From assembly GCF_000378505.1 (NCBI RefSeq), contig NZ_KB900000.1, positions 1-64,000 of the forward strand: DNA of 64,000 nucleotides, in the 5' to 3' direction. The stretch is from Modicisalibacter luteus DSM 23508. GTDB lineage: Bacteria > Pseudomonadota > Gammaproteobacteria > Pseudomonadales > Halomonadaceae. The position numbers and the translations under genes were made by a program. Below are positions 19,002 through 22,068 of this stretch, in pieces (within the stretch, counting starts at the first letter, position 1; every line of letters starts with the position of its first letter). The notes under the pieces are model-generated. The model was not told where the DNA came from, did not search any database, and saw only the letters and a list, made by a program, of their open reading frames with translations.

Positions 19002-20588
19002 CTACTTTAACCCCAAGCGCTTTCCAAGGCGATGCAGGTTGCCACTGTCTGTCTCCAAGGCGCGTGCCGTTGCCGCCCAGTTGTCTCCGTGGCTTGCCAG
19101 GGCGCGATAGATGTAGCGCCGCTGGAAATTGTCCGTGGCCTCTCGTAGTGCCATCCAGACCGTTTGGTTCGCGGCGACTGGTAGATCGGCATCCTCCGCA
19201 TCTGACTCGTTGGCGCTATCTGTCGGTAGATCCAGATGCGTGCGGGTAATATACAACGCGGTACGCTGCTGAGAAGATTCAGTGGCATCATCTTGACGCA
19301 TTCTGTCGCCGAACGCCCGCAAGGCGGCCCGACTTAGCGTATGCTCCAGCTCCCGGACATTGCCCGGCCAGTGCCAAGCCTTGAGCGCCACTTCTGCATC
19401 TTCGGTCAGGCGCAGGTTGGCCAATCCGAGACGAACACGGTTCTCTTCCAGAAAACTACCGGCCAGTAGCGGAATATCTTCGCGCCGATCCCGGAGGGGG
19501 GGCACCTGGAGCGGAAAGGCGCTCAAGCGATGGTAAAGGTCTTCACGAAAGCGGCCGGCTTCGACCTCAGCGGCAAGGTCACGGTTGGTGACAGCGATGA
19601 TGCGGACATCGACACGCTGAGGATGCTCGCTGCCGAGAGGCTGGATTTCGCCCTCCTGAAGGACACGCAGGAGCTTGGGCTGAAGCGCAAGGGGCAGTTC
19701 GCCAATCTCATCAAGCATCAGGGTGCTGCCGTTGGCCACATCGAAATAGCCACGGTGATCCTTGATGGCGCCCGAGAACGCGCCACGCCGATGACCGAAT
19801 AACGCACTTTCGATCAAGTGCTCGGGCAATGCGGCACAATTGACACGGACCAACCTGTTGTCGCGTCGCGTGGATAACGTGTGCAGCCGCTGAACGACGC
19901 GCTCCTTGCCGACGCCCGTTTCCCCATGTAGCAGCACGTTCATGTCGGTGGGGGCTACCAGTTTAAGGGCTTCATTGAGGCGTTGCATGGCAGAACTGTG
20001 CCAATGAACCTGTGACTGTGGCACCTGCGCCTTGTCATACGCTTCGTTGAGTCGTGAACTGGCCTGTTCGAATCGTTGGGTCAGGCGTAGAGCGCCCGCT
20101 AACATCTGGGCGGCCGCTTGCAGTTCCTGCCGGTCTATAGTATCGAACCGTCCTGGAGTCAGGGCATCCAGGGTCAGCATGCCTATAAGCTGGCCCTCGT
20201 CGAGCAGCGCCACGCCCATGCAATCGTGAACATGGGTCAGCTTGTCGTCGAGCATTCCATCGAAGGGATCGGGAAGGGAGCAGTCCGGCGCAAAGCGACA
20301 CACGCCCGCATGATCGGCAATGGCTGCCAGACGTGGATGATCCTTCAGCAGGAAATAGCGGCCATAAATATCTTGTGGAAGACCGAAGGCTGCAACTGGA
20401 CGTAAGCCGTCCTTGTCAGCAACCATGAGTGTACAGGCATCAACAGGGTAACGAGCGAGTAGCGTTTGAATAAGCTGGAGCCAAACATCCTGCTGCGCCT
20501 CGGCGGAGAGGCCGTCGCCCATACGATTGAGTAGGCCCCCAAGTGCTAGGAATAATGAAGAAGTCATGATGGTTTTTTGACGGTCCAT
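19002..20588 (-). CDS. norR: NorR-type sigma-54-dependent activator (GAF-AAA+-HTH)
   Basis: About 528 residues. An N-terminal GAF domain (~15-175) carries VHDCMGV and LTLDAL, positions consistent with the iron ligands of the nitric-oxide sensor NorR. The AAA+ domain has Walker A GETGVGKE, Walker B LMLDEIGEL, the sigma-54 contact loop GAFSGA (usual form GAFTGA) and WPGNVRELEH. A Fis-type HTH (WAATARALETDSGNLHRLGKRL) ends the protein. The start is uncertain: GTG 20594, ATG 20588 and ATG 20567 all lack a clear Shine-Dalgarno sequence. No norVW, hmp or norB is adjacent. The nearest sigma-54-like promoter is divergent, at 20725. Confidence 0.85.
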   Translation of the reverse strand: MDRQKTIMTSSLFLALGGLLNRMGDGLSAEAQQDVWLQLIQTLLARYPVDACTLMVADKDGLRPVAAFGLPQDIYGRYFLLKDHPRLAAIADHAGVCRFAPDCSLPDPFDGMLDDKLTHVHDCMGVALLDEGQLIGMLTLDALTPGRFDTIDRQELQAAAQMLAGALRLTQRFEQASSRLNEAYDKAQVPQSQVHWHSSAMQRLNEALKLVAPTDMNVLLHGETGVGKERVVQRLHTLSTRRDNRLVRVNCAALPEHLIESALFGHRRGAFSGAIKDHRGYFDVANGSTLMLDEIGELPLALQPKLLRVLQEGEIQPLGSEHPQRVDVRIIAVTNRDLAAEVEAGRFREDLYHRLSAFPLQVPPLRDRREDIPLLAGSFLEENRVRLGLANLRLTEDAEVALKAWHWPGNVRELEHTLSRAALRAFGDRMRQDDATESSQQRTALYITRTHLDLPTDSANESDAEDADLPVAANQTVWMALREATDNFQRRYIYRALASHGDNWAATARALETDSGNLHRLGKRLGLK

Positions 20589-20661
20589 TGTCACTTTGTC
20601 ACTGTCATTTTTTCACTGTTTGCCGGTTCGATGCAAAAAATTGCTTTGTTTTTTTGTCACT
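20588..20661. repeat. TTGTCACT repeat array upstream of norR
   Basis: TTGTCACT occurs perfectly at 20588-20595, 20596-20603 and 20654-20661, with a degenerate TTTTCACT at 20610-20617. The array lies at the norR start and 65-140 bases upstream of the divergent sigma-54-like promoter, where enhancer sites for an activator are expected. It does not fit the published NorR GT-N7-AC site. Confidence 0.5.
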
Positions 20662-20913: not shown

Positions 20914-20950
20914 TATAAAAATAAAGCCCGGCCTGTTAGGGCCGGGCTTT
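20914..20950 (-). terminator. Terminator of the small RNA (probably bidirectional)
   Basis: A perfect 11-bp stem, AAAGCCCGGCC / GGCCGGGCTTT with a six-base loop. On the minus strand it is followed by ATTTTTAT. On the plus strand it has only four T, so it may also stop a transcript from the sigma-54-like promoter. Confidence 0.88.
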
Positions 20951-21082
20951 TCAGCGCAAGTTGCGCTGAGCAGCATCCTTGCATCCATGACGAGCGTCCT
21001 GCTCGTGCTTCCTTGGGTCATCAAGCGTCCTGCCTGGGTTCCTTTACGGCACGTCCTGTGCACGCCGCTTAATGTCTCATGT
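20914..21082 (-). ncRNA. Candidate CsrA-sequestering small RNA (CsrB/RsmYZ type)
   Basis: No credible protein is encoded here. Read on the minus strand, ~80 nt hold seven GGA motifs (complement positions 21054-56, 21040-42, 21028-30, 21010-12, 20997-99, 20984-86, 20976-78). Contexts such as CACAGGACGTG and CAAGGATGC resemble the CsrA binding consensus. Two GGA triplets lie in hairpin loops: GCAC-AGGAC-GTGC (21049-21061) and ACGAGC-AGGAC-GCTCGT (20990-21006). A third hairpin (20951-20969) precedes an 11-bp terminator. A -10-like TACAAT lies at 21094-21089 and a perfect GacA box upstream at 21143-21160. Such RNAs titrate CsrA. The 5' end is estimated; ends and expression are unproven. Confidence 0.75.
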
Positions 21083-21096
21083 TTACATATTGTAAG

Positions 21097-21114
21097 AGAT
21101 AACGTGAGTTATCT
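21097..21114. promoter_or_regulatory. AGATAAC palindrome between small RNA and csrA
   Basis: AGATAAC-GTGA-GTTATCT is a perfect 7-4-7 inverted repeat just upstream of the small-RNA -10 element. A half copy (AGATAAC at 21724-21730) occurs at the same distance from the second GacA box, so the element belongs to a duplicated promoter block. Confidence 0.4.
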
Positions 21115-21142: not shown

Positions 21143-21160
21143 TGTAAGAAAATGCTTACA
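21143..21160. promoter_or_regulatory. GacA-type upstream activating sequence
   Basis: TGTAAG-AAAATG-CTTACA is an exact match to the GacA box TGTAAG-N6-CTTACA known upstream of rsmX, rsmY and rsmZ genes. It lies ~60 bases upstream of the predicted small-RNA start and 65 bases upstream of csrA on the other strand, so a GacA/UvrY-type regulator could control both. Confidence 0.75.
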
Positions 21161-21225
21161 AGGCTGATGTGCCGTATGTTACGAGTCGCGGCGGCACGTC
21201 AGCCAATCGACTGAAGGGAATCAAT

Positions 21226-21453
21226 ATGCTCATTTTGTCTCGCCGGGTCGGTGAAACGATGATGATTGGTGACGATATCGCCGTTACCGTCTTGTCGGTA
21301 AAAGGAAACCAGGTACGTATTGGTATCAAGGCGCCAAAGGATGTGGCCGTTCATCGGGAAGAAATTTTCGAGCGGATTCAACAGGGGGGCGTAGCTCAAG
21401 AGCGGGATGAGGTTCAAGACGCTCCCGAACGGGTGTATGCCTTAGCTGAATGA
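21226..21453 (+). CDS. csrA: CsrA/RsmA carbon storage regulator (copy 1)
   Basis: A 75-residue CsrA with the core [26 protein letters not shown]-contact residues Leu4 and Arg44 ([13 protein letters not shown]) are conserved. It dimerises and binds GGA motifs in mRNA leaders to block or modulate translation. The ATG follows GAAGGGA; a longer frame from 21169 is not CsrA-like. Its C-terminal tail (after ~55) differs from copy 2. It is divergent from the candidate CsrA-titrating RNA across a GacA box, giving a compact feedback module. Confidence 0.96.
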
Positions 21454-21544
21454 GGAAACGGTGGGCATGATGGGTAACGTCCTCGGAATTGCTTACTCAT
21501 GCATGCGGCGTTCGCAGGCCCGCATTTTAACTGCCACCTCCCAA

Positions 21545-21562
21545 GGGCGCTGATTAGCGCCC
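21545..21562. other. Hairpin in the csrA-csrA intergenic region
   Basis: GGGCGCT-GATT-AGCGCCC is a perfect 7-bp stem without a T-run on either strand. It may end the csrA transcript weakly, or be the vestigial terminator of a second minus-strand RNA. The rest of the 402-base gap (21454-21855) has no gene that I can support. Confidence 0.35.
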
Positions 21563-21768
21563 AGTAGTTTGACTACTCGATTCAAGCCCTCCCCTTGTCT
21601 GCCCAGGCAAAGCATTTGGCGCCCATATCAATAGGCGCTCGCCTTGTAGCAAACGTGTCTTGCCCTGATGCCGGAGCGCATCCTGTCTTTAGATACTCCC
21701 TCGATGGTTTTTTTGTAACAAAAAGATAACATAGGTTGTATACAGCTGTAGCTAATAACTACAGTTCG

Positions 21769-21786
21769 TGTAAGAAATAGATTACA
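21769..21786. promoter_or_regulatory. Second GacA-like box, upstream of csrA copy 2
   Basis: TGTAAG-AAATAG-ATTACA matches the GacA box at 11 of 12 positions. It lies 69 bases before the second csrA, nearly the same distance as the first box from the first csrA. An AGATAAC half palindrome at 21724 is also at the same relative distance. Confidence 0.6.
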
Positions 21787-21855
21787 GGGAAGGGCATTGC
21801 CCATACGGTTCGCAGGCAAGGCTTGAACATGCACTGTTTATTTACAGGGAACGAA

Positions 21856-22068
21856 ATGCTTATTTTGACGCGCAGGGTTGGCGAGACCTTGATGATTGGC
21901 GACGACATCACCGTGACCGTACTCGGAGTCAAGGGCAATCAGGTTCGCATCGGTATCAATGCGCCCAAGGATGTTGGCGTGCACCGCGAGGAAATCTATC
22001 GGCGCATCCAGCAGGAGTTCGAGAAAAGTGAAAGCCCTCTGGCGTTGGCAGAGGGCGAGAACGCCTGA
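21856..22068 (+). CDS. csrA: CsrA/RsmA carbon storage regulator (copy 2)
   Basis: A 70-residue paralogue, [56 protein letters not shown], with Leu4 and Arg44 retained. It starts at the ATG after CAGGGAACGAA; an in-frame ATG at 21823 gives a non-homologous extension. It lies 402 bases after copy 1 in the same orientation, and the upstream regions share a GacA box and an AGATAAC element at matching distances. This indicates duplication of gene plus promoter. Different tails may give different RNA affinities, as known for RsmA paralogues (inference). Confidence 0.96.

Follow-up and report, generated by a model that had tools for sequence, protein, structure and literature searches.

The question raised by this locus is whether the gene-free stretch beside a csrA gene on contig NZ_KB900000.1 of the halophile Modicisalibacter luteus DSM 23508 (hereafter the host) encodes a small RNA (sRNA) that titrates CsrA, as a sequence-only reading had proposed; it was examined within a window of 64,000 nucleotides, the whole stretch of DNA analysed. 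The region very probably encodes a new CsrB/Rsm-type sRNA of about 165 nt that is activated by GacA and sequesters CsrA, a reading that is best supported because covariation, homologues, a GacA box, a GacA orthologue and adjacent csrA genes all speak for it. The predicted minus-strand gene, its ends placed by inference, consists of the following parts:

20914–21082, minus strand: predicted CsrA-sequestering sRNA (covariance match, homologues at the same locus, covariation)
21049–21061, minus strand: hairpin 1 with loop AGGAC (GCAC-AGGAC-GUGC)
21022–21036, minus strand: hairpin 2 with loop AGGAC (CAGGC-AGGAC-GCUUG)
20990–21006, minus strand: hairpin 3 with loop AGGAC (ACGAGC-AGGAC-GCUCGU), preceded by CCAAGGA
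20951–20969, minus strand: fourth stem, free of GGA (folding)
20914–20950, minus strand: intrinsic terminator, an 11-bp stem (20950–20923) and a T-rich tail (sequence and covariation helix)

Inspection of the minus strand bears out the earlier count of seven GGA motifs in about 80 nt (81 nt, from 21056 to 20976) and confirms the 11-bp terminator with its T-rich tail; the AGGAC-loop hairpins are likewise present, but they number three and not the two originally proposed. The motif AGGA occurs six times in the 144-nt element, a count reached by none of 2000 dinucleotide shuffles (mean 0.76) and by 6 of 12772 windows of 144 nt (steps of 10, both strands), all six of which overlap the element; this AGGA density is unique within the 64 kb. 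The plain GGA count is less striking, with seven reached by 99 of 2000 mononucleotide shuffles. The folding energy of the element is low (z = -4.3), and the minimum-energy fold of the single sequence lacks hairpins 1 and 2, pairing them with each other instead; both hairpins therefore rest on the comparison with homologues.

Among 14 genomes of the genus (Modicisalibacter/Halomonas, host included), BLASTN recovered homologues or paralogues in six. The linked sRNA–csrA pair was also found by a DNA pattern scan in Halomonas sp. McH1-25 and Modicisalibacter xianhensis CGMCC 1.6848; in both relatives an additional csrA gene lies divergent to the sRNA, with DctP, redox and Rieske neighbours matching those in the window, and the linked copies of all three genomes carry six or seven GGA motifs each. 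Fourteen homologues were aligned with MAFFT, without structural information, and RNAalifold yielded a structure of 22 pairs in three helices that excludes hairpin 1. Nine of the 22 pairs are changed on both sides and 94.4% of cells are paired, values not equalled on any of five measures in 500 shuffles; sliding the pairing partners lowers every measure, a comparison that favours the structure over its slid versions, the structure being derived from the same 14 rows. Changes on both sides affect one of five pairs in hairpin 2 (helix 1) and four of seven in hairpin 3 (helix 2), the most conserved part of the sRNA; the terminator forms helix 3. The alignment of the same locus in related genomes, suggested earlier as a check, thus found GGA motifs and hairpins conserved, with stems covarying around fixed GGA loops; the GGA motifs of hairpins 2 and 3 are invariant in all 14 rows. 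For hairpin 1, inspection by eye revealed GGA-loop hairpins with changed stems at the same place in homologues. When 65 rows were fitted to a covariance model built here (R1), 14 of 15 predicted pairs showed double changes, in an alignment that leans towards the model's own structure and in which some rows represent one locus through overlapping fetches.

The proposed covariance search with Rfam families was also run, and gave no such support: no family reaches its gathering score in the window. With relaxed limits, RsmY (RF00195) has the best E-value, at 28.3 bits against a gathering score of 57; the rnk leader model reaches 29.5 bits, and further families whose members carry terminators score 24 to 25 bits. 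None of the 14 genus genomes has an RsmY match over the cut-off; since the same model also matches weakly (E ≤0.001) in 2 of 14 unrelated control genomes, the weak RsmY match was not accepted as proof. For CsrB/RsmB (RF00018, gathering score 71), the window copy is without a match among the matches listed, and none of the 19 host copies scanned reaches the cut-off (best paralogue 33.2 bits). The sole family above threshold in the relaxed search of 20 sources (the 19 host copies and L006) was tRNA-Sec, in a flank; this tRNA gene (L065:2441–2532, 76.5 bits) lies about 0.8 kb from a weak sRNA candidate, C1:101903.

Two covariance models of our own were used. The training set of R1 comprised 14 sequences, of which three come from the host genome and 11 from the host and the two relatives with additional csrA genes taken together; R2 is broader, with 65 rows that include many host copies. 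R1 matches the window sRNA with 107.8 bits at 20921–21047, a score that follows by construction, the window sequence being in the model. In the host genome R1 gave 18 rows of at least 40 bits, corresponding to 17 distinct loci (two adjacent rows on C32 merged), 14 of which are absent from the training set; R2 recovered the same 17 loci (19 rows, two pairs merged). Each of the 17 has at least six GGA motifs (mean 7.7, maximum 15), and five close pairs, on C4, C7, C24, C32 and C1, are 0.5 to 3.7 kb apart. The weak candidates C1:101903 and C5:254073 were left out of the 17, and R2 matches near 30 bits, such as C10:170687 with three GGA motifs and none in a hairpin loop, were not counted. Applied to 184 further genomes of the class with stricter filters and 19 candidates scored per genome, R2 yielded no match that exceeded 32.7 bits. 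Distinct sRNA loci of at least 40 bits number 17, 13 and 13 in the three genus genomes with extra csrA genes and range from 0 to 7 in the eleven that have a single csrA, in a detection biased towards the former, which supplied most model sequences; the three genomes with the linked pair have three, three and two csrA genes, and the other eleven have one each.

Upstream of the sRNA, three elements of a putative promoter region can be placed:

21143–21160, no strand: perfect GacA box (upstream activating sequence) TGTAAGN6CTTACA (pattern match)
21089–21094, minus strand: possible -10 element TACAAT, -35 consensus absent (sequence)
21098–21113, no strand: second palindrome GATAACTCACGTTATC, of a type common to other sRNA promoters of the genus

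The perfect GacA box claimed for this region is indeed there, 65 bp ahead of the csrA1 start codon, a position from which GacA might also affect csrA1. At up to two mismatches, two boxes occur in the 64 kb (this one and another with one mismatch at 21769–21786) against 0.56 expected, and 11 of 100 shuffles also reach two or more, so that the number of boxes does not settle the matter by itself. Of the promoter proposed earlier, the TACAAT at 21094–21089 stands, but a search for a sigma-70 consensus promoter at the sRNA found none, which leaves the -10-like element suggestive. A GacA orthologue is encoded in the host genome at C4:338244 (290.5 bits, cut-off 280); box and regulator gene are thus both present, and control by GacA/UvrY is predicted from them. 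A GacA-like box with up to three mismatches, anywhere from 240 to 20 nt upstream, accompanies 12 of the 17 host loci, 8 of 13 loci in Halomonas sp. McH1-25 and 7 of 12 in M. xianhensis (locus C23:40199 excluded); in the background the figure is 17 of 352 windows, among which there may be other sRNA promoters. The second palindrome belongs to a pattern, TAAC-N3/4-GTTA, that is found exactly in 13 of 42 sRNA promoters vs. 2 of 878 background windows, and with one mismatch in 26 of 42 vs. 24 of 878. It recurs upstream of paralogues in the host, Halomonas sp. McH1-25 and M. xianhensis; its distance to the GacA-like box is often 26 bp, and 49 bp at the window sRNA.

On the other side of this intergenic region, two csrA genes follow one another:

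21226–21453, plus strand: csrA1, divergent from the sRNA (Pfam CsrA, 3.5e-26)
21856–22068, plus strand: csrA2 (Pfam CsrA, 3.8e-27)
21454–21855, minus strand: csrA1–csrA2 gap, probably the remnant of another sRNA promoter (alignment to a relative's gap)

A third csrA gene of the host genome, at C1:486111, is called canonical here on account of its 96% identity (53 residues) with the unlinked csrA found in both relatives that have the linked pair; the linked csrA genes would then be extra copies. CsrA1 and CsrA2 are 84% identical across their first 53 residues, and both have the arginine at position 44, a residue known to be important in RNA binding. The csrA1 gene of Halomonas sp. McH1-25 (L005:1200–1424) has RRITEA instead of RRVGET in its N-terminal stretch and may be diverging from csrA2. 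The ribosome-binding regions of both window genes (21210–21228 and 21842–21858) contain GGA (AAGGGA and ACAGGGAACG, respectively), a feature compatible with self-repression by CsrA.

The gap between the two csrA genes contains the one-mismatch GacA box and aligns, chiefly along the promoter portion, with the csrA–sRNA gap of M. xianhensis; the score is 148, where the best of 200 shuffles reached 50. For the window's sRNA–csrA1 gap, the alignment to the same M. xianhensis gap scored 188 (best shuffle 50). When the window's two gaps were aligned to each other, the score of 59 was not significant, as shuffles reached up to 74 and averaged 31. With filters off, R1 found no recognisable sRNA body between csrA1 and csrA2, and a second intact sRNA at this place was rejected. 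The gap is likely what is left of a second sRNA promoter, its body no longer recognisable; since it resembles the relative's csrA–sRNA promoter gap, csrA and sRNA may have been duplicated together, and the simplest reading would be that the inner sRNA copy then decayed.

The same relic invites the thought that the sRNA at 20914–21082 might itself be a decaying or silent paralogue that has lost its transcription or regulation. The linked copy of Halomonas sp. McH1-25 offers a parallel, its GacA box being degenerate (the best match has three mismatches and a different position); the window sRNA, however, has kept an intact box, intact stems and terminator and every one of its GGA loops, and the six or seven GGA motifs of the linked copies also argue against decay, which makes this reading improbable. 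It is very improbable that the element acts in cis, as leader or attenuator of the sigma-54 regulator gene that follows it (19002–20594), instead of being a free sRNA. This gene lies on the same strand, with the terminator about 330 nt ahead of it, and is common to Halomonas sp. McH1-25 (74% identity); yet M. xianhensis has kept the sRNA, inspection of 14 kb there revealed no homologue of the regulator and showed different genes following, and the paralogues are spread over many contigs. The sRNA's own terminator and a downstream gene not common to M. xianhensis point to a free-standing gene. It is also very improbable that the sRNA strand carries a short coding gene with the GGA pattern as by-product: mechanical ORFs of 79–124 aa span the region, and across the element all three linked copies have the same sRNA-strand frame open, its ATG at a matching position, but this frame continues through the terminator to ends that are unrelated, the other-strand frames are closed in both relatives, variation tracks RNA pairing, and the 51 nt compared show no third-position excess in either relative (differences at codon positions 1, 2 and 3 of 1, 3, 1 in Halomonas sp. 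McH1-25 and 1, 3, 2 in M. xianhensis); the frame's unrelated ends and the lack of third-position excess over these 51 nt are the grounds on which the RNA reading was kept.

The linkage of the CsrB/Rsm-type sRNA to csrA, described from the outset as unusual, is in fact rare. Across the family, R1 has matches at E ≤0.001 in 88 of 151 genomes and csrA is present in 150, and inspection of the matches listed by eye places an sRNA within 1 kb of csrA in three of the 151, the host and the two relatives named above. Extra csrA matches in G034, G035, G040, G100 and G137 have no adjacent sRNA among the matches listed, the nearest being 18 kb away (G035); the next nearest distances within the genus, again among the matches listed, are 12 kb (G006) and 14 kb (G009). 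A plasmid-borne module was set aside, as a plasmid collection contained no match.

The sequence-only reading had compared the architecture to that of CsrB, RsmY and RsmZ, a comparison upheld by the covarying GGA-loop stems, the homologues and the GacA box. Some of the GGA motifs lie in hairpin loops, and the gene appears free-standing with an intrinsic terminator. The window sRNA resembles RsmX, RsmY and RsmZ of the Pseudomonas Gac-Rsm system in size class, in GGA motifs in loops and linkers, in its terminator and in the upstream GacA box; it differs in scoring below the RsmY gathering score and in being divergent from csrA, whereas the known RsmX, RsmY and RsmZ genes are, to our knowledge, unlinked to csrA. 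With CsrB and CsrC of the BarA-UvrY system it shares multiple GGA stem-loops, predicted here to sequester CsrA, but at about 165 nt it is much shorter than the 356-position CsrB model. Amplified sets of CsrA-binding RNAs have been described: nine Rsm RNAs (RsmZ1-7 and RsmY1-2) in Azotobacter vinelandii (PMC7366521), and seven (RsmX1-5, RsmY and RsmZ) in P. syringae and csrB1-4 in Vibrio tasmaniensis, with rsmX copies partly in tandem (PMC7366521, PMC7911923, PMC6262261). The predicted host RNAs are likewise multiplied; unlike these sets of nine, seven and four copies, the host has 17 distinct loci of at least 40 bits, one of them beside csrA, and the nine of A. vinelandii are the largest number met in the accessible parts of the literature surveyed. 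In a table of a 2020 review, the CsrA-mimic sRNA of Halomonas anticariensis is given as unknown, although its GacS/GacA system has been studied (PMC7366521). Among titles and opening lines of abstracts from a full-text literature that leaves most subscription journals outside, we found neither a CsrA-binding sRNA of Halomonadaceae nor a CsrB/Rsm RNA beside csrA described.

If the CsrB/Rsm-type reading holds, phosphorylated GacA would bind the box at 21143–21160 and switch on minus-strand transcription, which would end at the terminator (20950–20923); the seven GGA sites, of which three lie in AGGAC loops, would then bind CsrA dimers supplied by csrA1, csrA2 and the csrA gene on C1, and CsrA would be taken off its target mRNAs. 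The unusual features of this sRNA are its pairing with csrA and the size of its paralogous family. We tentatively suggest, as somewhat less than an even chance, that csrA and its sponge form a self-contained titration module, divergent from one GacA-controlled region and co-duplicated, which accompanies an amplification to at least 17 sponge RNAs in species that have additional csrA genes; as a caveat, this suggestion is weakened by the non-significant direct comparison of the window's two gaps. If true, it would describe the largest set of CsrA sponges so far. With a csrA gene and its own sponge as neighbours, the dosage balance between sponge and target can be tested in a natural setting, and the sRNA loci are candidates for the CsrA-mimic sRNAs of Halomonadaceae and come with covariance models that detect them.

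Some members of the family depart from the compact form of the window sRNA. Longer, CsrB-like RNAs with 10 to 15 GGA motifs each occur in the host at C32:6702–6938 (L058), C7:174098–174289 (L062), C24:15858–16036 (L064) and C5:254073–254251 (L074, a weak match); the paralogue on C7 approaches CsrB in scoring 33.2 bits to that family. In M. xianhensis, the row at C21:4055, with four GGA motifs and no good box, may be a false match, and C30:5267–8339 (L082, L092, L094 and L098) holds four sRNA copies on one strand within 3.1 kb.
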